In this document: positions 36 to 10,178 of the stretch, in pieces
How positions within the stretch are numbered: the first letter of the stretch is position 1
Layout: each line of letters begins with the position of its first letter
Source: Alphaproteobacteria bacterium
GTDB taxonomy: Bacteria > Pseudomonadota > Alphaproteobacteria > Micavibrionales > UBA1664
Reading direction: 5' to 3'
Length of the DNA stretch: 10,178 nucleotides
Assembly (NCBI GenBank): GCA_002401195.1
Contig: NVSI01000039.1
Location: 1-10,178, forward strand
The notes under the pieces: generated by a model
Database searches by the model: none
Told to the model about the DNA's origin: nothing
Seen by the model: only the letters and a program-made list of their open reading frames with translations
Translations under genes and position numbers: made by a program

Positions 36-1379
36 TTATAAAAAACATTCACAAACCTTTTTTTGTTTCTCTAGGAACAAATTAACGATCTCGTTATGAG
101 TATCTTTAGGCGATAAATCGGTTGTATCTATTTTTTGATACGACGACGGTAATACATTTTCATACACTTGCTGTAATTTGTTCACTTCTTCATCTGTATG
201 TTTACCTTTGCGTTTTTGAACGGCCTCAGACGAACACAATAAATACACAAATAATGAACGTTCGTCTTTACGTTTTAATACCATGCGAGTCATCCAACAT
301 GACAGACGTGCGCCAGCGATTTTTCGACCACTCCACTTCATTAAAACATCATATAAAGATCGATCATAAATCACGATATAACCAATTTTTTCGAAAGTCT
401 TTCCAATAGCATAACGCGTTATAATTTCTAAGCTGGATGTGACGGGCCAGATCGACCGCAACAAAAAACCAACGCCTCTTAACGCGCGTCCTTTATCGAT
501 CCATTCATTCAAAAACACCCACCCCTGACGTCCAAGATATATTTTCTTAATTGGGCCAAGTTTTCGCAAAATTGTGGACAGATTTTCCATTGATGATGAC
601 TTCCCTGCGCCGTCATGACCTGCCAAAATTATCCCGCATCCATACCCCAATTTATTACGCTTCAAACCGACACGAACCGCACATCGATTGATAACATTAG
701 AACGTCTGTTTTTCTTAACTTTATCAAGGTTTAGGATGCGTAGGTCAATGGGATTAAGATTATTTAAATTAGATACAATTTTATTTTGGATGCCTATTTT
801 TCCTTCATGACTCGACGCCATAAATTTATCAACACTCTTTTTCATTCCAAGCGGTGCGAATATTTTTTTACAAATATCGACTTCTTCGATATCATTTATT
901 TTGCCACTAAATCGAGCACACAAATCATCCAAAATCGGATCATTAGGCTTTTCACGGATCGCATTCACAATAAATCGCGTCACAAAAAACATGATGTCAT
1001 CCAAAACCCAAAAATCGTCCTTTTTTATTCTTGAAGAAAAGCATAAATCTTCCAATGGAATACGATATTCTTTGTATTTTTTAGAGCCTGAAAATAATCC
1101 GAAATGACAATGAAAGGTAAAAAAACGATGCGTTTCATTATCGTACCCTCTGAATATATAAAGGTCGCCTCCGTGTGTGTCAGCGGATGTGATATCAAGA
1201 ATAAAACCATTTTTAGATAGAAAAGAGAAAACGTCATGTCGGTTTTCGTCACGAAACAAAATATCGATATCTTCTTTTCCTTCAAGCTGTCTTTTAAAGT
1301 TTTCAAGACTTTTCCAAATCACGTATTCAATTTTTTGTGAATCTAAAAGAGATGCCATGTTTTTTATTTGAGCAAGCAT
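36..1379 (-). CDS. Nucleotidyltransferase-like domain fused to thymidylate-kinase-like P-loop domain
   Basis: 447 residues from ATG 1379. The N-terminal part (1-110) resembles an NTP-transferase fold: IEYVIWKSLENF, then EGKEDIDILF, where D37 and D39 form the acidic metal-binding pair, followed by LSKNGF. Residues 110-240 are not recognisable. From about 247 there is a P-loop kinase domain like thymidylate kinase: Walker A GHDGAGKS (254-261), YDRSLYD (338-344, the DR motif) and a lid-like RKGKHTDEE (390-398). Similar two-domain proteins occur, to my knowledge, in polysaccharide loci without a firm function; a nucleotide- or sugar-phosphorylating role is inference. The start is ATG 1379 (TGATG with the previous stop) or the in-frame GTG at 1382; the ribosome binding site is weak. 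No clear terminator is visible in the 35 bases after its TAA. Confidence 0.78.
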   Translation of the reverse strand: MLAQIKNMASLLDSQKIEYVIWKSLENFKRQLEGKEDIDILFRDENRHDVFSFLSKNGFILDITSADTHGGDLYIFRGYDNETHRFFTFHCHFGLFSGSKKYKEYRIPLEDLCFSSRIKKDDFWVLDDIMFFVTRFIVNAIREKPNDPILDDLCARFSGKINDIEEVDICKKIFAPLGMKKSVDKFMASSHEGKIGIQNKIVSNLNNLNPIDLRILNLDKVKKNRRSNVINRCAVRVGLKRNKLGYGCGIILAGHDGAGKSSSMENLSTILRKLGPIKKIYLGRQGWVFLNEWIDKGRALRGVGFLLRSIWPVTSSLEIITRYAIGKTFEKIGYIVIYDRSLYDVLMKWSGRKIAGARLSCWMTRMVLKRKDERSLFVYLLCSSEAVQKRKGKHTDEEVNKLQQVYENVLPSSYQKIDTTDLSPKDTHNEIVNLFLEKQKKVCECFL

Positions 1380-2908
1380 CACGCGACTTTCTTGTTCAAA
1401 TAATAAGAAATGACGTCTTTATATTGACGGTACAAATAATCGATTTCGTCACCCTCGCCGCCTTTTTCCCAAACTTTTACATACTCCATCAAGAAACCGT
1501 GTTCATACGAGCATGCAACATAACGACGCATAGATTGATCATATTTTTTATCATCAAAGGGAGAAGACAGCACCTCAACAATTTTTTTAGGCAATGATGG
1601 AAAATCCGTATGATACGTTATATTTGGAAGAAGTTTTGTAATGCCCATTTCACCAAATTGAATGGCTGGAATTTTCATCAATGCCGCCTCCATCAACACC
1701 GTCCCACTTGGCGCCAATACAATTTGTGCGCCGTGTATTGCTCTTTGGGAATCGATATCTGGCGCGACCAACTTCACATTTGGAGATCGCGCAATTTTAT
1801 CATAAAAAGAACGAGATCTTCGACCAATCATAGATGGATGCTCCTTAACAACTAGCGTCATATCACCGGGCAAAGATTGTGCCGTCAAACGGGCGATCTC
1901 AATTTGATTATTAAAATATCCGGAAATCACGTCAATTTGTTCTTCTGGTTGAAATTGAAGCGGGAAAAATGCATAAGGCGATTTAATTTTTTCTATATCT
2001 GAATACGGATATTGCCATGCATTTCGTTTGTTCCATAAATGCATAAAATGATCACGTAAAATATAATACGGAGGGCGGTAATCAAGAGTGGGGCCTAAAT
2101 TTGCACGCCTATTTTCTCGACTTTCACTCCGTCTCCAATAAAATCGAAAACATAAATAAAAGGGTAAAATGATATCTTTAAAACGCCGAACACATGTTTT
2201 TCTTACCTTGGGCGGTCGAATATTATTGACCTTATTTGTCGCGCTTTCTTGTTCTTCAAGGAAGTTAACAGTCTTCGTCTTTATCTCGTCCGAAGTCGCG
2301 TCATAAGAATAATCATTATAGCGATCGATAAAATATCCCTGATCACAAAATCCTGAACCAATAAACGAAAATCGACCATCCACTTTTGTATACATGACAC
2401 CAACCATGGGGATCGATTTTTTCTTTGCCAACAATCGAGTGATCTCCTGAATCACAGAGGCAAAGTTCGGCGTTAAAATAATATCTGGTTTCACCTCATC
2501 TAAAAAAGATTTCAAGGATAGATATAGAGCCTGAATATAGATAATTATATCCTTATCATTCATATTTTGTCGGAAAGAATAATAATATTTATCTTTATAA
2601 CTTCGGGCATGTGTTCGCAATCGATTGGCGATCGGCCAAATACTATCCACGCCTAAATCATCGCAAATTTTCTGTAAAGATGGAATTACATCAAATTTCT
2701 CAAGAACTTTTTCGGGGAATTCTATGATCTCATCATGGTTTAGAATACCAAAATAATTCAGGTCACTTTGCTCCTGAATAAAACGAGCCGTTGTTTTTTT
2801 TGCCGTAATTGCCGCAATGGCGTGACCGTCACGGTTTAACTGTGTTGCGATTGGGTGACCAATACGCACCCCCCATCCACGTTGCTGAAATATAAGAATT
2901 TTTGACAT
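1379..2908 (-). CDS. KpsS-like capsule/surface carbohydrate biosynthesis protein (GT-B transferase)
   Basis: 509 residues. The N-terminal Rossmann-like half begins MSKILIFQQRGWG and contains DIILTPNFASVIQE (152-165). The C-terminal nucleotide-binding half has FFPLQFQPE (314-322), LVVKEHPSM (352-360), APSGTVLMEAALMKIPAIQFGE (399-420 region, with E407). These are the marks of the capsule-synthesis family (PF05159) that includes KpsS/KpsC Kdo transferases. A basic linker at about 243-275 (RPPKVRKTCVRRFK, then Arg-rich) joins the halves and might touch the membrane. Being the only clear sugar transferase in view, it is the best candidate to transfer the CMP-activated nonulosonic acid to a growing glycan or lipid acceptor; this is inference. 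The ATG overlaps the stop of the GNAT gene (TAATG) and has no separate ribosome binding site. Confidence 0.78.
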   Translation of the reverse strand: MSKILIFQQRGWGVRIGHPIATQLNRDGHAIAAITAKKTTARFIQEQSDLNYFGILNHDEIIEFPEKVLEKFDVIPSLQKICDDLGVDSIWPIANRLRTHARSYKDKYYYSFRQNMNDKDIIIYIQALYLSLKSFLDEVKPDIILTPNFASVIQEITRLLAKKKSIPMVGVMYTKVDGRFSFIGSGFCDQGYFIDRYNDYSYDATSDEIKTKTVNFLEEQESATNKVNNIRPPKVRKTCVRRFKDIILPFYLCFRFYWRRSESRENRRANLGPTLDYRPPYYILRDHFMHLWNKRNAWQYPYSDIEKIKSPYAFFPLQFQPEEQIDVISGYFNNQIEIARLTAQSLPGDMTLVVKEHPSMIGRRSRSFYDKIARSPNVKLVAPDIDSQRAIHGAQIVLAPSGTVLMEAALMKIPAIQFGEMGITKLLPNITYHTDFPSLPKKIVEVLSSPFDDKKYDQSMRRYVACSYEHGFLMEYVKVWEKGGEGDEIDYLYRQYKDVISYYLNKKVA

Positions 2909-3597
2909 TACAGATCAAATACATCCCTATAATAGGCGTCACCTTCAACACTCAAAAAATGATCCAATCGATCAATGAAGCGTTCTTTTGGTAAGGATTT
3001 TAAACGACGTTTCATAGAGTCCAAAGAGTCCCAATATTGCCCGCGAACATCAACAAGACGCAGGTAATCATCATAAATTAACGAGCTTCGCATTAAATTC
3101 GCGCGCTCCTCCCCTTTGATGAAATCCTGTCGTGTAATACCTTCAAGACGATACCCCAGAATTTCTTTCCTGTATTGCCACCCATTCAGTTCCATATGTT
3201 GTGCGGAATTAATCCGTCGTGCGCCCATTTCTGTCATCGCATATTCCGACATACGAGCAATCGATTCCAAAGAAATATACGGGCGCATTCGGGGGTTACA
3301 TTGCTGGCCAATGACCATCGCCATATCCGCCTGCCCCTTGTTAATATGGCTCAATGATATCGTTCCAATATAATTATTTTTATCCGATATGATAAAAATA
3401 ACACGCTGGCCGCTGGCTTTTTCCTGTTTGAAAAATTCCAGTTGTTTTTCAGGGGTGTTCCGCGTCTCTCCCTGATACAAATACCGCGTAATTTTTGGAT
3501 CATTAAACCACGAATACCAATCTGAGTTCAGGGCATATTCCTCTGTCGGAATACACAAATCAATATTTTCACCTTCGATGTGAACGTCCAGTTTCAA
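2908..3597 (-). CDS. GNAT-family acyltransferase (RimJ/RimL-like)
   Basis: 229 residues. The fold is recognisable from NSDWYSWFNDPKITRYL (24-40), YIGTISL (76-82), MVIGQQ (94-99), a long helix (107-125), RRINSAQHMELNGWQYRKE (127-145), LGYRLEG (147-153) and a RimJ-like close with RANLMRSSLIYDDY. It should transfer an acyl group from CoA to an amine, plausibly on a sugar given the context. The acetyl-CoA loop, normally Q/R-x-x-G-x-G/A, is replaced by NPRMRPY around 101-107, so donor binding may be altered, or activity lost. About 50 residues after 178 extend beyond the usual domain. It starts at TTG: no in-frame ATG lies nearby, the frame upstream closes by 3637, and GGAGG sits 7 nt before the TTG. 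The TTG overlaps the previous TGA (TTGA), and the gene's stop overlaps the next ATG. Confidence 0.82.
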   Translation of the reverse strand: MKLDVHIEGENIDLCIPTEEYALNSDWYSWFNDPKITRYLYQGETRNTPEKQLEFFKQEKASGQRVIFIISDKNNYIGTISLSHINKGQADMAMVIGQQCNPRMRPYISLESIARMSEYAMTEMGARRINSAQHMELNGWQYRKEILGYRLEGITRQDFIKGEERANLMRSSLIYDDYLRLVDVRGQYWDSLDSMKRRLKSLPKERFIDRLDHFLSVEGDAYYRDVFDL

Positions 3598-4559
3598 TTG
3601 ACAGCCTCCATTTTTGACTGGTTTCTTTCCAAAAAATTACACGCGCCCATATATTCATGAGGCGTCACAAAAACATCATCCTTAACCGAAAAGCTCCGTT
3701 TATTAATGCGATTATTTTCAAAAGCTGTCTTTTTTTGAACTGCCATTTCAATCAATTTAGATTCCGAGTAATCACTCCTCAGACTTAAATTAAGAATTGT
3801 TCCATCCGTTGCATTTGCAAATTTCGTTTGATTAAGGTTCAAGGCAGTCATGCCCATCCCGGGTCCAAAGCCCTTTTTATTGAGCTCTTGTTCCACAGAT
3901 TTAAATAAATTTTTATTATTCAGATCCCCCAAAGGAGTGTGGACATACGGCATATCATACCGTTTTAGAACTGATAAGATGGTATCAATAATCTTCCAAA
4001 ACTCACCATGATCCTGCGGAATAAACGGCCAATGCCCTGCGGATAAACTGAAATCATAATGGCCGTAGTGAACTTTTGTTATACCCAGATCGTTTTTATA
4101 GTCCAAAATTTCAGGTAAATTTTTCAAGCCCTCTTCAGACTCGAGCATCGCTGTAAACTTGATGGATTCACAGCCCATTTCATCGAAGGCCGCCCGCGCG
4201 CGGCGCACATAATCAAGATTATCTGATTTAGGCAACCATATGTCCGCAACAGGACATATGGTGTTATGAATGTGCGCAATAGTTTTAAGGTCATCTTCAA
4301 AATACGAAGTTTCCAAACCGTTCATTCGAATACGGATTGGCACAACATCTTGTATTTTATAAACGGACGTCAGTTCCAGAAGATTTTCACGCGCTTTTTT
4401 TTTCAATGCTGAGGATTTATTAGGGTCAAAAATATCCTGAACGCTATCTTCAATGTCCAAAACAACCTGACCACCCTGCGCTTTGATCATCGGGGTCATT
4501 CTTTTTAAGGCCCTCCCCATAATCAACGGAACATATTGATAGCACACGACTTTACCCAT
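3594..4559 (-). CDS. HpcH/HpaI-family (CitE-like) lyase/aldolase
   Basis: 321 residues from ATG 4559. The pattern follows the CitE/malyl-CoA-lyase branch. VVLDIEDSV (32-40) matches the family's LDLEDAV. IRIRMNG (75-81) carries the substrate-binding Arg, followed by WLPKSDNLDYVRRA (108-121) and FTAMLESEEG (135-144, with predicted metal ligand E140). HYGHYDFSL (164-172, with predicted ligand D169) and GFGPGMGMTALNLNQ (230-244) complete it; there the usual HPSQ-like motif has become NLNQ. The family cleaves or forms 3-hydroxyacyl (CoA-thioester) C-C bonds, for example malyl-CoA from acetyl-CoA and glyoxylate. A role in supplying an acyl donor to the next gene's GNAT is inference; an aldolase acting on a sugar is the alternative. 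A TTG at 4580 with GGAAGG 8 nt upstream would add seven residues; ATG 4559 follows the previous stop after one base. The gene contains a perfect inverted repeat. Confidence 0.75.
   Translation of the reverse strand: MGKVVCYQYVPLIMGRALKRMTPMIKAQGGQVVLDIEDSVQDIFDPNKSSALKKKARENLLELTSVYKIQDVVPIRIRMNGLETSYFEDDLKTIAHIHNTICPVADIWLPKSDNLDYVRRARAAFDEMGCESIKFTAMLESEEGLKNLPEILDYKNDLGITKVHYGHYDFSLSAGHWPFIPQDHGEFWKIIDTILSVLKRYDMPYVHTPLGDLNNKNLFKSVEQELNKKGFGPGMGMTALNLNQTKFANATDGTILNLSLRSDYSESKLIEMAVQKKTAFENNRINKRSFSVKDDVFVTPHEYMGACNFLERNQSKMEAVN
3605..3609 (-). promoter_or_regulatory. Ribosome binding site GGAGG deciding a TTG start
   Basis: On the minus strand GGAGG lies 7 nt before TTG (3595-3597) of the GNAT gene. 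It is the strongest Shine-Dalgarno match in the window and sits within the last codons of the CitE-like gene. It makes the TTG start convincing and shows that this organism uses non-ATG starts. Confidence 0.8.
4235..4262. repeat. Perfect 11-bp inverted repeat with 6-base loop
   Basis: Arms at 4235-4245 (ACCATATGTCC) and 4252-4262 (GGACATATGGT) are exact reverse complements around the loop GCAACA. The pairing ends at 4234/4263. It lies within the CitE-like gene, over codons for residues around 99-108. It would form a stable hairpin in the mRNA, or a dyad for a DNA-binding protein. No T-run follows on the minus strand, so it is not an intrinsic terminator. Confidence 0.9.
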
Positions 4560-4560
4560 C

Positions 4561-5232
4561 TTAAGACAGTTTTCTGGCAAGCATAAAGCCTTCCGCCGCG
4601 TGGACGCCGACCTCTGCGCCCCGAACCGTTGCCACGGCCTCGATCGCCTTATAAGAACGAGGATGAGGAAAGTCCCTCATCTCTTCGTCATAAGCCCGTA
4701 ACGATTCGATTTTCTTCAGCATAAAATTCGAAACATCAAAAAAGACATTTGGCTTAAAACAAGATTGAGAATCTCCATATGCCCACTCCGTACTGGACGG
4801 CACTTCGAACATCAAAATTTCACGAACAGTTTGCCCGATTTGAGGGCGAGTTGCCGTCACCACCGCCTGATAAGTCACGCGATGATCCACATTCAAATCA
4901 TGCGCATAATGCGTAAAGATAGTGTCGGGTTTAATGTCCGCGATCACAGATTCAATCTGTTGAACGACATCCAACAACGGCAATGAATCCATTTTATTAT
5001 CAGGAAGATCAAGGCATTGAACAGTTTTAAGCCCCAAAATCTCAGACGAATTTCGTAAAGCATCACTCCGTTGAGAGGCATCAGTCTCATCTGCGCTTGC
5101 GCGCGCCGAAACACCGTTCGTCAGACATAGTAAGTGAACATCCTTGCCTTCGCTGACCAAGCGCGCAACTGTCCCGCCGCAGCCTAAGGCTTCGTCGTCA
5201 GGATGGGCGACAATAACAAGGATAGTTTTCAT
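4561..5232 (-). CDS. LmbE/PIG-L family zinc N-deacetylase
   Basis: 223 residues, the normal size for the family. The N-terminus carries AHPDDE (9-14): H10 and D13 are predicted zinc ligands and D12 the catalytic base. The third ligand is H117 in HDLNVDHR (111-118). Family members (PIG-L, MshB, BshB, LmbE relatives) remove the N-acetyl group from GlcNAc-type moieties or related amides. Here the likely substrate is an N-acetyl group on a nonulosonic acid, its precursor or another glycan sugar. No signal peptide is seen, so it should act in the cytoplasm before export. Its ATG overlaps the PseI stop codon (TAATG), which implies coupled translation; a GGTGG lies 10 nt upstream. The gene looks more GC-rich than those to its left (see findings). 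The exact substrate is not readable. Confidence 0.9.
   Translation of the reverse strand: MKTILVIVAHPDDEALGCGGTVARLVSEGKDVHLLCLTNGVSARASADETDASQRSDALRNSSEILGLKTVQCLDLPDNKMDSLPLLDVVQQIESVIADIKPDTIFTHYAHDLNVDHRVTYQAVVTATRPQIGQTVREILMFEVPSSTEWAYGDSQSCFKPNVFFDVSNFMLKKIESLRAYDEEMRDFPHPRSYKAIEAVATVRGAEVGVHAAEGFMLARKLS
4589..4594 (-). promoter_or_regulatory. Possible ribosome binding site GGAAGG for an alternative TTG start
   Basis: GGAAGG on the minus strand is 8 nt before TTG 4580, which is in frame with the CitE-like gene and seven codons upstream of its ATG. The spacing fits a working site, but the TTG lies inside the deacetylase gene and the match may be chance. The ATG at 4559 has no such site and would depend on coupling to the deacetylase stop. 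Confidence 0.35.
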
Positions 5233-6437
5233 TATATAGTTTCCACCTTATTAAAAGAAGGTTTTTGTTCTGCCTGAATGCAGGTCTCAGCCAGACCTTC
5301 GCCAACCTTAATATCTCTCGTTAAGATAGCGTCCTCAAATACAGGGCGGTGCCTTGGATGCGCACCATGCCCGGGACGGAGAGCCGAAAAATTTTCATCA
5401 TAAACAAGTTTCTCACCTGCGCTGACATCCTGCGTCACGATCAATGAACGACGGTATCCTGACAAAAAATCTTCGTCTTTTCGTAAAAACTGATCTTCTC
5501 CCCAGGCATCTTCAATTCTCCCCAAATCGTCTCCAGCCATCTTGGAAAATTGAGGGTTACTCCCAATGAAAGACACGACACTTTGGCACGCTTGTTCAAA
5601 ATCATCAAAACGTTTATCTCCAAGATACTCCTCATACACACGAATAGAATCCATCATAATTTTATATTCATCCGGCGTCAGTGAAAATGCCACATCAGGA
5701 TTACGCGCACCATTTTCAAAAAACTCATCCTTAGTGAGCGTAATGTGCTTTTCCAACATCTCGCCCCCCATTGCCAAGCCTAATAGCGGCGCCGTAATTG
5801 TTATTGTGTGATCCGACAAACCAATCTTCGCACGCGTCCCAAAGCGTTTTTTCAACGCGACAAAAGATTTCATATTTACAATTGATATATCCGCAGGATA
5901 ACTACTGATACAGTGCAACAAGTAAATGTCAGTCGCCCCTGCACTTTGCGCAACGGTCAACGCATGGTCAATATCATCGTAATTGGCCTGCCCCGTAGAA
6001 ATAATGACTGGCTTTCCTGTTGATGAAGCCGACGCCAGCAATTCATCATCCACAATTTCAAAGGATGCGATTTTGTAAAATGGTGGCTCAAAATTTGTTT
6101 TCAAATAATCAACGGCCGTTGGACTAAATGGTGACGAAAAAACATCGATACCAAGCTCTGCTCCACGCTCAAACAATGGCGCATGAAAATCCCACGGCAT
6201 GTGGATATTTTCATACAGGCCATAAAAATCCTTAAACTTAGCCCAAGGTGTCCCCTCCAACGAAAAGGCCGGAAGATCAGATTTTACCGTCAAATCCTTT
6301 GGCTTGTATGTCGCAACCTTAAACGCATTTGCTCCCGCCGCATGCGCGCCCTCTAAGGTCCCCATACAGACGCCCAACAATTTTCCATGCGCATTTGCAA
6401 TCTCTGCGATCACGTAATGTTTATTATTTTGAAGCAT
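5232..6437 (-). CDS. pseI: PseI-like pseudaminic/nonulosonic acid synthase (NeuB family)
   Basis: 401 residues. NeuB-family enzymes condense phosphoenolpyruvate with a 6-carbon amino sugar to give a 9-carbon nonulosonic acid. Visible in order: AEIANAHG (11-18), FKVATY (39-44), WDFHAPLFE (82-90), FSSPFSPTAVDYL (100-112), YKIASFE (121-127), IISTGQA (145-151), LLHCISSYP (173-181), GLSDHT (206-211), EKHITL (229-234) and NPDVAFSL (246-253). After these comes a C-terminal SAF antifreeze-like domain (about 329-391) with RRSLIV and LRPGHGAHP. YKIASFE, the WDFH block and DxAFSL favour PseI over NeuB and LegI. It is longer than typical PseI (about 345 residues): extra residues lie in the loop at 235-246, in the linker at 285-328 and in the tail. 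A 24-nt gap, the only real spacer in the window, precedes it. Its TAA overlaps the next ATG by one base. Confidence 0.92.
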   Translation of the reverse strand: MLQNNKHYVIAEIANAHGKLLGVCMGTLEGAHAAGANAFKVATYKPKDLTVKSDLPAFSLEGTPWAKFKDFYGLYENIHMPWDFHAPLFERGAELGIDVFSSPFSPTAVDYLKTNFEPPFYKIASFEIVDDELLASASSTGKPVIISTGQANYDDIDHALTVAQSAGATDIYLLHCISSYPADISIVNMKSFVALKKRFGTRAKIGLSDHTITITAPLLGLAMGGEMLEKHITLTKDEFFENGARNPDVAFSLTPDEYKIMMDSIRVYEEYLGDKRFDDFEQACQSVVSFIGSNPQFSKMAGDDLGRIEDAWGEDQFLRKDEDFLSGYRRSLIVTQDVSAGEKLVYDENFSALRPGHGAHPRHRPVFEDAILTRDIKVGEGLAETCIQAEQKPSFNKVETI

Positions 6438-6461: not shown

Positions 6462-7658
6462 TTATATATTCGCAAGAGCAATCACTTCGCCTTGCCAGCC
6501 TGTCGCGCGAATAGCGGTTTCAATCTCGACACTAAAAGTCGACGAAATCGCTATTACAATTTTATCTTGATCTTGCTTTCGGCTTTCCAATAAAGACGGC
6601 CCATGCTTAATGGACTTATTCAGCCCCGCATACTGAAGGCCCTCTTTGTTTTTATTGCTGTCTAAATAAGCCTCAAATTGTCCATCCAACAAAGACCCAA
6701 CGGTCAAACCAAACGACCCCGCGCCCCACAGGTAAAGCTCTTTACCTTCGCTAGCGGACGACAACGCATCCAACCAACGCTGTTTTTGACCGCGAATTTT
6801 ATCCAAATTAAAGGCATTCGGTGGTAAAATATCTGGCAAAGCATTTGGAGCCTCGGATTCTTTTTGGAAGAACCCGATCATATTGCCCGCTTCACTCAAC
6901 TCCAAACCAACCATAAGCCATCCATTTTTTTTCGCCAAAGCCTGAATGGACGCTTTAGAAAATACGTGAATGTGCTCAACATGAAATGGATCAAGCTTTC
7001 CTTCTTTGATAAACCAATCCAAGCACGGTGTTTCATGAATTAAGTACGCCCCTGGCGCCGCAACTTTCGCGGCAGCATTAAAAAAATCAGTTTGATCTGG
7101 GATATGCTCAACAACATGACGTGAAAAAATCATGTCATATTTTGTATCAATGCCCCGCACTGTTTCAGCAGTAAAGAATGCGTCACGAACTTCAAATCCT
7201 TTTTCTTCTGACTTCTTACTTGTCAGAGAATTCGGCTCAAACCCCAAAAATGTCGCATCCGATAAAAATGCATCCAAATCAGATAACATTTCACCATCCG
7301 AACTTCCAACTTCCAAAACATTAAGGCCCTCGCCTTTCTTTGGATGCTTATCAAGATATTGTGGCAAAACAGAAATAAAATATTTACGAAAAGTTTCACC
7401 TATTGAGCCCTCCGCCGGCGTGTAGTAATGAGACGAATATAACTTTTCAAGCAATTCCTCGCTATACTCCGCCTGAAAACAATGCCCAGACACAGGAGAA
7501 TAATAAAAATCCAACGCAACACGAACTTGATCAAGCTCAGCGTTCACACTCATCGGATGTTGAAAAACCGGGAACTGTGGAAAGTTTAAAAGATGCTCAA
7601 CTTCATTCGTCCCCGTTATAGGGCAAGAAACTTCTTCTTTGTGTGCCGGTATACTCAT
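6462..7658 (-). CDS. SAM-dependent methyltransferase, NDP-sugar C-methyltransferase-like (three-part)
   Basis: 398 residues in the layout of the TylCIII/NovU/TcaB9 sugar C-methyltransferases (Methyltransf_13 / class I core / Methyltransf_14). An N-terminal region carries CPITG (C12) and SGHCFQ (C60). The class I core has VLEVGSSDGEML (114-125, SAM loop), FEPN (140-143, acidic residue binding the ribose) and HVVEHIPD (181-188). A C-terminal Rossmann-like domain begins at YLWGAGSFGLTV (about 309-320) and has YLDSNKNKEG (331-340). The family normally has four zinc-binding cysteines at the N-terminus; only two of the expected positions are Cys here, so the zinc site looks degraded. It probably methylates a sugar or sugar-linked group; the methylation site is unknown. 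The ATG is followed by the first expected family motif, supporting this start despite the 56-nt overlap with the HAD gene and a weak ribosome binding site. Confidence 0.85.
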   Translation of the reverse strand: MSIPAHKEEVSCPITGTNEVEHLLNFPQFPVFQHPMSVNAELDQVRVALDFYYSPVSGHCFQAEYSEELLEKLYSSHYYTPAEGSIGETFRKYFISVLPQYLDKHPKKGEGLNVLEVGSSDGEMLSDLDAFLSDATFLGFEPNSLTSKKSEEKGFEVRDAFFTAETVRGIDTKYDMIFSRHVVEHIPDQTDFFNAAAKVAAPGAYLIHETPCLDWFIKEGKLDPFHVEHIHVFSKASIQALAKKNGWLMVGLELSEAGNMIGFFQKESEAPNALPDILPPNAFNLDKIRGQKQRWLDALSSASEGKELYLWGAGSFGLTVGSLLDGQFEAYLDSNKNKEGLQYAGLNKSIKHGPSLLESRKQDQDKIVIAISSTFSVEIETAIRATGWQGEVIALANI

Positions 7659-8289
7659 AATGAATAAAATCCAAACCTGTATTACGAGCCAATTGCCCGT
7701 CTGTTGTTAAATCGTCGCCCACTATAACAGCACGAACTTCGCCTCGCAAGCGTTGATACTCTTTAATAACATGCGGGTCAGGTTTTAATTTACAGGCCTT
7801 ATTTCGAGGATCCAGAATGATGATTTCATCGACGATTTCTTTCAAATTTAACGCTTCAATTTTCAGGGATTGCCGTTCCTTTTCACCATTTGTAACGACA
7901 ATAATTTCATGTCGTCCAGCATTATGAATTTTCTTCAACAGCGGCCTTAACGATTGCTCTTGCACAAGGTTTTTAGGGTCATATCGCTGATAAAACGAAA
8001 TCAAATCGGGCAAAACACCCGAATTCAAGCCATAAAACTCAATGAAATCATTAAACAAACAGCGATAATGAGGACCTTTTTTATCTTTGACATCCCAAAT
8101 CCATAGCGCCATCTCTTTGGCTTTCTTATCACTCTCGCCTAAAACATGGCGCGCCATGTCCAAAAAGGCAAAAAAATCATAATCAAATCGATCATAAATC
8201 GTGTGGTCCAAATCAATGAAAATTCGAGAATACCCCACCAGAGCCATTTCAAGTTTTTGAGTGTTTTTAGGCTGGGATAAATTCTTCAT
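7603..8289 (-). CDS. HAD-superfamily hydrolase (YjjG/NANP-like phosphatase)
   Basis: 228 residues from the chosen ATG. All four HAD motifs are visible: motif I FIDLDHTIYD with nucleophile D26 and acid D28, motif II TNG at 133-135, motif III lysine in KLKPDP (K169), and motif IV VGDD (191-193). The helical stretch between motifs I and II is a C1-type cap, as in YjjG and N-acylneuraminate-9-phosphatase. The role is probably dephosphorylation of a sugar or small-molecule phosphate; standard pseudaminate synthesis needs no such step. The start is uncertain. ATG 8289 overlaps the ATP-grasp gene by 23 nt and has GGCGG 4 nt upstream. ATG 8247 would leave a 19-nt gap and begin 9 residues before motif I, without a ribosome binding site. 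The open frame reaches 8346 but that start overlaps too far. The 3' end overlaps the methyltransferase by 56 nt. Confidence 0.87.
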   Translation of the reverse strand: MKNLSQPKNTQKLEMALVGYSRIFIDLDHTIYDRFDYDFFAFLDMARHVLGESDKKAKEMALWIWDVKDKKGPHYRCLFNDFIEFYGLNSGVLPDLISFYQRYDPKNLVQEQSLRPLLKKIHNAGRHEIIVVTNGEKERQSLKIEALNLKEIVDEIIILDPRNKACKLKPDPHVIKEYQRLRGEVRAVIVGDDLTTDGQLARNTGLDFIHYEYTGTQRRSFLPYNGDE

Positions 8290-9178
8290 AAAACCGCCAT
8301 ATAATTTTCTGATCCGCGATGTCGCGGTCTTTGGGATATTCATCATTTAAAAATAGCGCAATGCTTTCTGCAGCGACATTAAAGCCAGCCTGCGCACAAA
8401 ACAGATAACTTCCTGACAGACGTGGGTTGATTTCCGACAAAAGAAGTCGACCTGTTTTGTCGCATTCAAAGATTTGAATATTAATTGGCCCCTTAAAATC
8501 GAGTGCTTCAACGCATTTTTTACACAAATCCAGAATGTCTTGGCGGACGTCAATTTGACCAACGGTGCTCACCCCTTTTGCGCTCAACCTTTTACGCGGC
8601 AACCCAAAAATCCATTCCCCGTTTTTACCTGTCAAAACATCAATCGTATACTCCATACCTCGAATATTTTCCTGAAACATCCCTTCTGTTTTTTTCGAAA
8701 AATAATCCCATTCGTCTTGTGTCGTGATCACACTATGCCCGTTTCCACCACGTCCTGATCTTGGCTTGTAATACGCAGGAAACGTTGTCGCTAATTCAAC
8801 ACAAGGAATGTCATTTTCTTTACAAAACTTATGGAACTCAATTTTGTCATCTGTGATTTGAATTGCTTCGGCACAACTGATAAAAATTTTATCTTTTAAA
8901 ACATCAGGAAGATGTCCCCAACGTTCGGACAGCAATACCAACTCCTCATCAATATAAGGAAAAAATACGTCGAATTGATTCGATTTTTCGACCAAGAAAT
9001 TAATGTATCCTTGCTTATTTTTAATCAATGGCGCCCGCCAAAAATCATCTGCAAAAAACTGCCCCGTTGGGTGCTCCCCTGCATCCATTCCAATAACAAA
9101 ATGCCCCTCGGCCTGAATGCTTTTTATGATACTGGGGGCGACTGCCGTTCCCATTGCACTTAACAAAATCCGCGCCAT
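8267..9178 (-). CDS. ATP-grasp carboxylate-amine ligase (CarB/PylC-like)
   Basis: 303 residues with a complete ATP-grasp layout. A pre-ATP-grasp Rossmann-like domain occupies residues 1-95 (MARILLSAMG start, VIGMDAGEHPTG). The ATP-binding lysine sits in YYKPRSGRGGNG (136-147, with its Gly-rich loop), followed by QENIRGMEYTIDV (169-181), GPINIQIFE (230-238) and the metal-binding SEINPRLSGS (E249, N251). The family activates a carboxylate as an acyl-phosphate and joins it to an amine or other nucleophile. In this operon a plausible acceptor is an amino group of a sugar intermediate, or a small metabolite used as substituent; the substrate cannot be read from sequence. The ATG has a good ribosome binding site, AAGGA at 9186-9190 with 7-nt spacing, lying inside the end of the preceding gene. 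All key catalytic residues look present, and size is normal for the family. Confidence 0.88.
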   Translation of the reverse strand: MARILLSAMGTAVAPSIIKSIQAEGHFVIGMDAGEHPTGQFFADDFWRAPLIKNKQGYINFLVEKSNQFDVFFPYIDEELVLLSERWGHLPDVLKDKIFISCAEAIQITDDKIEFHKFCKENDIPCVELATTFPAYYKPRSGRGGNGHSVITTQDEWDYFSKKTEGMFQENIRGMEYTIDVLTGKNGEWIFGLPRKRLSAKGVSTVGQIDVRQDILDLCKKCVEALDFKGPINIQIFECDKTGRLLLSEINPRLSGSYLFCAQAGFNVAAESIALFLNDEYPKDRDIADQKIIWRFYEEFIPA

Positions 9179-10178
9179 TTAATTATCCTTTATAAATTTA
9201 ATAAATTGACCTTGTTGTTCTTTGTTTTTAAATTTTAGACCTTCAAATAATTTGATTGACGCCTCATTTTCACTGTGAATATAAGCATAGATTTCACGAC
9301 AAGGAAAGAGTGAGAGGCCCTGTTCCAACGCTTTTAAAGCGAGCCCTTTTCCTCGAAACTCTTTACCAATCGCGACCGAGACCTCACAATCGTCGCCCAC
9401 GTTATCAAAGCGTAAAAAGCCCGCATCTTGCCCTTTATACGAGACAATAAAAAATGACATCGGATTACGAATACGTTTTTGCATGTAATTTTCATGCTCT
9501 GTCATTGTTGGCGGCTCTACATTTTTGTAAAACTTCCTTGTCTCCGCATCCTGCAACCCATAGATGAAATTAGAATCTTCCATACGCGCCTGGCGCAAAG
9601 ACAAATCACCACCTACATACGAACACAGGAATGAATCGAGATAACAACGCGGTTCTCCGCCTAAAATACCGATATTATGATCTGACAGTTCATTCAACAT
9701 GTTCTCATTTTGCGTTAAACTCGTAAACATCTCTAAAAAATTCTTTGACGAAAACTCATCGATACGCCCCGCATTATAAATTGCGCAACTCCGTTCAAAA
9801 TAATCAATGTTCGGTTTTTGATTGTCTGCATACTCGTACACCATCGACGGCAAACCCAACACCGCGCGCTCATATATATTTCCACCGCCGGCGCCAATTG
9901 CAAAATCACACATGGACATCACGCTTGCCAAATCATCTGCATTTAACGCATAGAAAAATTCAACTTCATGACAGCCTTTAAAACGATCAATAACATCTTG
10001 TATTTCCGATTGCAGGCGCGGGCTTAACACAACGAACGCCTTTATTTTTTTAGGGATCGGCCTCAGCGCCTCTAAAATTTTTGCCGTAAATAATTTCGGA
10101 TCATCATACCCAAAACTTATAAAAACATTCGATATACAGGAACAATGCGCCCACGGAGAAACATTTAAAAATGCCTCA
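9179..10178 (-). CDS. pseG: PseG-PseH fusion: UDP-sugar hydrolase fused to GNAT N-acetyltransferase (5' end cut by window)
   Basis: The frame stays open to the right edge, giving 332 visible residues with the N-terminus missing; GTG at 10030 lies inside the conserved domain and is not the start. Visible residues 17-190 are the C-terminal half of PseG, the MurG-like GT-B hydrolase that removes UDP from UDP-2,4-diacetamido-2,4,6-trideoxy-altropyranose. I see ISFGYDDP (PseG usually has SFGG-DP), then AIGAGGGNIYER at about 93-104 and GLPSMVYEYADNQ, the PseG nucleotide-binding region. Residues 191-332 form a GNAT domain with the acetyl-CoA loop RGKG (275-278) and NEASIKLFEGLKF; this fits PseH, which N-acetylates the 4-amino group one step before PseG. 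The order is thus hydrolase first, acetyltransferase second. The PseG catalytic His is in the missing part. The stop TAA directly abuts the next ATG. A legionaminic-type (LegG/LegH) substrate cannot be excluded. Confidence 0.88.
   Translation of the reverse strand, partial: EAFLNVSPWAHCSCISNVFISFGYDDPKLFTAKILEALRPIPKKIKAFVVLSPRLQSEIQDVIDRFKGCHEVEFFYALNADDLASVMSMCDFAIGAGGGNIYERAVLGLPSMVYEYADNQKPNIDYFERSCAIYNAGRIDEFSSKNFLEMFTSLTQNENMLNELSDHNIGILGGEPRCYLDSFLCSYVGGDLSLRQARMEDSNFIYGLQDAETRKFYKNVEPPTMTEHENYMQKRIRNPMSFFIVSYKGQDAGFLRFDNVGDDCEVSVAIGKEFRGKGLALKALEQGLSLFPCREIYAYIHSENEASIKLFEGLKFKNKEQQGQFIKFIKDN
9186..9190 (-). promoter_or_regulatory. Ribosome binding site AAGGA of the ATP-grasp gene
   Basis: AAGGA on the minus strand lies 7 nt before ATG 9178 and inside the last codons of the PseG-PseH gene. 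It supports the ATG as the start and independent ribosome loading despite zero intergenic space. Confidence 0.65.

Follow-up and report, generated by a model that had tools for sequence, protein, structure and literature searches.

We analyzed the first 10,178 of the 11,256 bases of contig NVSI01000039.1 (hereafter the window) from an alphaproteobacterium of the Micavibrionales, in which a PseI-like nonulosonic acid synthase gene is followed by genes for a PIG-L deacetylase, a CitE-like protein, and a GNAT acyltransferase. On balance, we favor the view that these three genes form an N-acyl exchange cassette of the pseudaminic acid pathway, in which PIG-L and the GNAT work with the CitE-like protein as the acyl-coenzyme A (acyl-CoA) source. 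The original prediction had placed the three genes within 2908..5232; they lie there on the minus strand, and each product scored above its Pfam cut-off:

4561..5232, minus strand: PIG-L/LmbE-type zinc N-deacetylase, 223 residues (PF02585); proposed to remove the 2-N-acetyl group
3594..4580, minus strand: CitE-like (HpcH/HpaI) protein of an apparently undescribed subfamily (PF03328); proposed acyl-CoA source
2908..3597, minus strand: GNAT N-acyltransferase with a C-terminal extension, 229 residues (PF13302); proposed role, acylation of the freed amine with the new group
5232..6437, minus strand: PseI-like nonulosonic acid synthase, 401 residues (TIGR03586, 299 bits; NeuB model, 179 bits)

In the pseudaminic acid pathway, PseC leaves the amine at C4 of the hexose precursor (C7 in the product) free, and a PseH-type enzyme determines which acyl group it receives. 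The nitrogen at C2 (eventually C5) arrives already acetylated from N-acetylglucosamine and can be changed only after a deacetylase has acted. In the exchange that we propose, PIG-L would remove the acetyl group from the C2 nitrogen (C5 of pseudaminic acid), the separate GNAT would place another acyl group on the freed amine, and the CitE-like enzyme would make or tune a hydroxyacyl-CoA for use by the GNAT; condensation of an acyl-CoA with a 2-oxo acid is one possible route. We infer the nitrogen and the intermediate acted upon, the feeding of the GNAT by the CitE-like enzyme, and the nature of the acyl group. A malyl group, as originally suggested, is a possible guess, and no result points to malyl in particular. 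In general terms, a PIG-L enzyme paired with a transferase probably serves N-acyl exchange, in our judgement.

The gene preceding the cassette had been called PseI-like, and this assignment held: its product scored 299.2 bits against TIGR03586, which is under the equivalog cut-off of 340.25 yet 120 bits above its score with the NeuB model (TIGR03569). Elsewhere in the assembly, contig C22 encodes PseB with 551 bits, compared with a cut-off of 407.75 that was passed in just 1 of 14 control genomes. Beside PseB lie the first 117 residues of PseC (160.6 bits; cut-off, 423.5), terminating at an in-frame stop about a dozen bases before the end of C22; the assembly comprises 1.29 Mb and is 66.7% complete. 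The GNAT part of a PseG fusion in the window likely supplies the PseH function.

The close spacing of the genes was also borne out, and the run proved longer than originally noted, because ten same-direction minus-strand genes fill the window with gaps of at most 24 bp. The PseI-like and PIG-L genes overlap by 1 bp, PIG-L and CitE by 20 bp, CitE and GNAT by 4 bp, and GNAT and the next gene by 1 bp. The annotated CitE start is a TTG at 4580, and an in-frame ATG at 4559 matches the start of the homologues. Position 4580 is probably too early and the ATG the true start, in which case about 1 bp would separate PIG-L and CitE. The GNAT gene starts with TTG, preceded by GGAGG.

The PIG-L protein matched PF02585 with 110.7 bits (cut-off, 28.2), and its motifs are intact. 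Residues H10, D12, D13, E14, and H117 were invariant in an alignment with three pse-linked relatives (4/4; AHPDDE-type plus DH), and we take them to be the zinc motif (HxDDE) and the distal histidine of the family.

Support for the deacylation/reacylation reading comes from loci in which PIG-L again adjoins PseI and has interchangeable partners that transfer formyl or acyl groups. At the order level, 27 of 142 genomes contained a PseI homologue at E 1e-30, and the 26 loci (26 genomes) outside the window were read, with scanning by hidden Markov models built for this analysis. Three of the 26 carry a PIG-L gene whose product is 46–49% identical to that of the window, each adjoining PseI and a formyltransferase (226–231 residues; PF21553, 65–71 bits) in place of CitE and GNAT. 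A strong formyltransferase match (383–396 bits) was present in all three order loci with PIG-L compared with none of the 23 without it (Fisher p 0.0004, kinship ignored), and the counts were the same when all open reading frames were scanned. At the class level, the search was started from the formyltransferase, because selection on PIG-L was thereby avoided. The query matched in 5 of 385 class genomes at E 1e-40, and in all five loci (L101, L105, L106, L108, and L115) PIG-L lies at most two genes away and adjoins PseI. L101 and L108 are near copies with 99% identical DNA, leaving four independent loci, and only L108 was placed in the PIG-L tree. The hypergeometric value for the association was 1e-6, a figure that ignores kinship and counts near copies twice. 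A search for PIG-L itself at E 1e-50 matched 23 of 337 class genomes, our own included, and a PseI/NeuB-family gene above 200 bits was present in the fetched stretch at 16 of the 24 PIG-L places other than the window.

The partner of PIG-L is exchanged between loci. On a cyanobacterial (Synechococcus) plasmid (L069), a small PseH-like GNAT (47.6 bits, under the cut-off), a formyltransferase, LmbE, and PseI (508.7 bits, over the cut-off) are consecutive. A Mariluticola plasmid (L068) has the order pseB-pseC-pseF-PIG-L-pseG-NeuB family, and the next gene, annotated as hypothetical, encodes a distant formyltransferase-like protein (L068:10821-11528; PF00551, 24.8 bits versus a cut-off of 26.1). 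In L120, a 142-residue GNAT, PIG-L, and PseI are directly adjacent, with no CitE-like gene. Among plasmid records matching PIG-L, of which 4 of 320 were inspected, those from Priestia and Cytobacillus carry no pse-cluster annotation at the PIG-L locus.

A second, weaker formyltransferase group (57–75 bits) adjoins PseI without PIG-L in 5 of the 23 loci (L129, L130, L131, L138, and L140). Such an arrangement is expected if these enzymes act on the already free N4, whereas N2 needs prior deacetylation, and the group is perhaps N7-formylating. L062 carries both kinds, with the weaker-group gene at L062:7325-8056.

In the PIG-L tree, the formyltransferase label was not clustered, requiring 8 changes versus a shuffled mean of 7.2, with at least 3 forced by the starred branches. 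The forks were mostly weak, and the window PIG-L had no supported neighbour; therefore, we claim no direction of partner exchange. WbqC-family proteins recur in PIG-L-bearing pse clusters, at L107:8003-8695 (adjoining PIG-L, and the only one tested with PF08889), L068:11525-12205, L099, and L109. A further PIG-L-bearing pse cluster encodes a PhyH-family (phytanoyl-CoA dioxygenase) protein at L110:9555-10343.

The CitE-like protein scored 35 bits with PF03328 (HpcH_HpaI; cut-off, 25) and belongs to the CitE superfamily by its CoA-lyase fold, metal-site Glu and Asp, D-x-E-D motif, and arginine. Among the 50 chains listed by Foldseek, 49 were of the CoA-lyase type (malyl-CoA, citramalyl-CoA, CLYBL, CitE, and RipC) and one was a malate synthase. 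Residues R85, N87, and D176 were conserved in 59/59 aligned sequences, E44, D45, and E147 in 58/58 readable ones, and D42 in 48/48 readable ones. With malyl-CoA lyase, it shares the fold and the metal and arginine sites, but it is only 17–22% identical to malyl-CoA lyase, CLYBL, and citramalyl-CoA lyase and differs from the PF03328 superfamily in an insertion after the D-x-E-D motif and the lack of a lid Asp or Glu. It scored under the equivalog cut-offs for RipC (NF038242, 27.8 versus 375 bits) and CitE (TIGR01588, 16.2 versus 443.4 bits) and had no match with PF15617 (C-C_Bond_Lyase) at E 0.1. The protein appears to belong to a small enzyme family not yet described, a statement that comes from literature searches only.

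In CoA lyases, the lid acid at the C-terminus is Asp, or Glu in thioesterases (PMC3832036). The corresponding position 306 holds D or E in 20/20 ordinary homologues, whereas the 58 rows of the CitE-like family have T in 41, P in 15, A in 1, and a gap in 1, with no Asp or Glu in 57/57 readable members; it is S in P0087. This absence weighs against the proposed exchange, suggesting a reaction other than that of a plain malyl-CoA lyase and weakening the case for malyl. We dropped the idea that loss of the lid acid is unique to the family, as 27 more distant matches (P0088-P0114) have G in 24, D in 1, E in 1, and a gap in 1. P0088-P0113 form a separate CitE-like group with mostly Gly replacing the lid acid (motif FIGPP). 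L005 (Rhizobium) encodes an ordinary HpcH/HpaI aldolase and was dropped.

The missing lid acid, combined with an invariant metal pair and arginine, would also fit a different role for the CitE-like protein, namely as a 2-oxo-acid-dependent aldolase or lyase acting on a sugar or on a compound that the downstream genes use as a precursor, with PIG-L and the GNAT alone swapping the N-acyl group. A sugar aldolase was also the alternative offered in the original prediction. Aldolases of the HpcH/HpaI type that do not use CoA rely on the same metal pair and arginine, and L120 shows PIG-L and a GNAT doing without a CitE-like gene. We nevertheless consider this rather unlikely, given a D-x-E-D motif of the CitE type, unlike the HpaI-type motif in L005, the near-uniform CoA-lyase character of the Foldseek chains, and the overlap of the gene, in two lineages, with N-acyltransferase genes belonging to two Pfam families. 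The second of these lineages is the Pelagibacteraceae (SAR11), where an AAC(3)-like N-acyltransferase gene, from a family other than GNAT, overlaps the CitE-like gene in two of three loci; one Pelagibacteraceae CitE-like locus (L002) adjoins a nonulosonic acid cluster. Because the CitE-like family thus adjoins another N-acyltransferase family, these pairs lend further support to deacylation and reacylation. Together with the exchangeable PIG-L partners, they uphold the part of the original prediction that saw an N-acyl swap on a nonulosonic acid; the identity of the acyl group is no part of that support.

As a more specific and tentative proposal, which we think somewhat doubtful in its entirety, the CitE-like proteins may constitute a family of acyl-CoA aldolases that has gone undescribed and that dispenses with the usual lid Asp, perhaps by means of the His/Gln two residues on, to build a hydroxyacyl-CoA that a dedicated GNAT would put on the N5 freed by PIG-L. 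PIG-L with an exchangeable donor module (formyltransferase, GNAT, or CitE plus GNAT) would then be a general means of N5 diversification.

The family is sparsely distributed. Among 55 kin-group genomes, CitE was found in our own genome only. The CitE profile matched 21 of 385 class genomes at E 1e-10, the 20 besides our own (42–56 bits) reading as ordinary CitE relatives, and in 297 SAR11-order genomes at E 1e-25 it matched only the two genomes already known. CitE and GNAT queries gave no match in plasmid and phage collections, and 0/40 viral contig stretches matched by the CitE profile were confirmed.

The GNAT scored 30.9 bits with PF13302 (cut-off, 25.4), and its AlphaFold2 model had a pLDDT (predicted local distance difference test) of 90, with Foldseek matches including SpeG, Helicobacter pylori PseH, and FdhC. 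It shares its fold with PseH and FdhC, which acylate amines on deoxyamino sugars. The FdhC structure was solved with a 3-hydroxybutanoyl-amino sugar, providing a precedent for GNAT-class enzymes that move hydroxyacyl groups onto amino sugars. The protein differs from PseH in scoring under the equivalog cut-off (TIGR03585, 35.1 versus 93.1 bits), in its C-terminal extension, and in belonging to a distinct conserved subfamily. This subfamily contains 27 proteins besides our own, 41–86% identical, and is rare, occurring in 2 of 349 phylum-sample genomes, our own included.

The GNAT could instead acylate a different amine on the nonulosonic acid, such as one introduced at C8 by a class III aminotransferase, leaving PIG-L to expose a free amine or to serve another partner. 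Beyond the window, the contig holds the remainder of the PseG-GNAT gene and, separated from it by 6 bp on the upstream side, an incomplete gene whose product matches class III aminotransferases weakly (20.2 bits versus a cut-off of 30.5). This match favors the alternative and lowers our confidence in the proposed exchange. Moreover, the genes beside the GNAT relatives in L143 (SAR11) and L104 include one for an aldo/keto reductase and one for a fused cytidylyltransferase-aminotransferase, a hint that the nonulosonic acid may bear an additional amine. Nonulosonic acids with an amine at C8 have been described (PMC3210612). These fusions also accompany formyltransferase-PIG-L (L105, L106, and L115) and occur in L107, L114, and L003, so they are not tied to the GNAT and do not decide which amine it serves. 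The three order loci with formyltransferase and PIG-L have a cytidylyltransferase of ordinary length or no fused one, and in the window PIG-L, CitE, and GNAT are adjacent and overlapping. We judge acylation of another amine rather unlikely. Cytidylyltransferase-class III aminotransferase fusions of about 670-690 residues were seen at L143:5887-9548 and L104:5707-9300 and in L105, L106, L107, L114, L115, and L003, often with an aldo/keto reductase.

Several further observations weigh against an exchange cassette of three genes. Only the window and, by inference, a single metagenomic contig held the PIG-L, CitE, and GNAT triad, and the CitE-like gene was found in 0/53 other loci read. The metagenomic case concerns a CitE-like protein (P0002, 76% identical) and a GNAT (P0022, 86% identical), for both of which the longest contig is 5600 bases and the source is the same; equal size and source, the sole grounds here, place them probably on one contig. 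No PIG-L was found in the three CitE-bearing SAR11 genomes searched. A GNAT relative was present in one of these three, and in that genome (G057) it lies on a contig other than that of the CitE-like gene, while the relative in L104 belongs to a Pse-like cluster without PIG-L. Other neighbours of PIG-L are WbqC (L107), an inositol-phosphatase-type protein (L114), and a class III aminotransferase (L112), indicating that an acyl- or formyltransferase is not always adjacent. The formyltransferase-PIG-L-PseI order is the reverse of that in the window, the independent loci are few, and some PIG-L-free loci lie on short contigs (L124, 4.4 kb; L140, 6.1 kb; L141, 3.1 kb); in L123, PIG-L is at the contig edge. 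The expected co-occurrence of all three families near nonulosonic acid genes thus failed to recur as a triad, but links between two of the families are recurrent.

Among characterized enzymes, the window PIG-L resembles the PIG-L/LmbE deacetylases (BshB and chitobiose deacetylase) in family score, zinc motif, and length, but it is linked to PseI and to formyl- and acyltransferases and scored under the BshB1 cut-off (89 versus 182.5 bits). In Aeromonas polar flagellin glycosylation islands, a gene for a "deacetylase" separates pseF from pseG or pseH from pseI, and genes for a class III aminotransferase and an aldo/keto reductase lie nearby; the accessible part of that report names no CitE-like gene and states neither the family nor the role of the deacetylase (PMC7874193). 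Malic acid amides on amino sugars occur as N-malyl groups in polysaccharides of marine bacteria; there, in the portion of the article available, malyl is carried by diaminouronic rather than nonulosonic acids, and no CitE-like gene is named (PMC3210612). Our literature search, which largely excluded subscription literature, found no paper joining pseudaminic acid and PIG-L. Co-mentions of pseudaminic acid and LmbE were an accession prefix only, none of those with citrate lyase was on the subject by title, and those with N-formyl and deacetylase were apparently only off-topic, by title and the start of the abstract.

Bacterial flagella and capsules can carry nonulosonic acids with unusual N-acyl groups, and to our knowledge the mechanism by which the acyl group derived from N-acetylglucosamine is exchanged in these acids has not been settled. 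If our proposal is correct, PIG-L with a donor module would allow bacteria to vary an N5 acyl group that is otherwise fixed in pseudaminic acids, and a deacetylase with interchangeable acyl-donor partners would provide a simple genetic rule by which sequence could be used to predict N5 substituents. Sugar biosynthesis would gain a new group of enzymes in the CitE-like family, which would also offer a natural test of the role of the lid acid in CoA lyases.

In order of transcription, the ten genes encode the PseG-GNAT fusion, an ATP-grasp enzyme, a HAD hydrolase, a methyltransferase, the PseI-like synthase, PIG-L, the CitE-like protein, the GNAT, a possible glycosyltransferase, and a P-loop-like protein. 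The window ends within the first of these, and the contig continues upstream of the operon part shown for a further 1,078 bases. The genes outside the cassette and its PseI-like neighbour are as follows:

9179..10177, minus strand: PseG with a C-terminal GNAT domain, cut by the window end (TIGR03590 PseG, 67.7 bits; PF13302, 48.8 bits); 487 residues on the full contig, including one unread residue
8267..9178, minus strand: ATP-grasp enzyme (PF15632, PRK12767-like, by family matches)
7603..8346, minus strand: HAD hydrolase (PF13419, 41 bits)
6462..7658, minus strand: S-adenosylmethionine methyltransferase with a C-terminal domain (PF13489, 63.6 bits)
1379..2908, minus strand: possible glycosyltransferase (weak NF046086 match, 25.6 bits versus a cut-off of 200)
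36..1382, minus strand: protein of 448 residues with a P-loop-like stretch (GHDGAGKSS), kinase-like by eye, with no Pfam or NCBIfam match

The ATP-grasp gene lies within the Pse operon although its family (PF15632, ATPgrasp_Ter; 63 bits) is named after Ter operons, and similar genes occur in L064, L065, L100, L104, L114, and L116. The CitE-like, ATP-grasp, and HAD proteins might accordingly have nothing to do with N-acylation and instead constitute a small-molecule module of the kind named after Ter operons. The CitE relatives P0008 and P0009 pass PF15617, a family linked to Ter operons, but the window CitE-like protein does not match it, none of the six other loci with an ATP-grasp-like gene has a CitE-like gene, and no Ter protein is among the family matches of the window, making such a module very unlikely.

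Finally, a relative of the possible glycosyltransferase (513 residues, 36% identical) is encoded at L106:11900, three genes past PseI, in a locus of the formyltransferase-PIG-L-PseI type.

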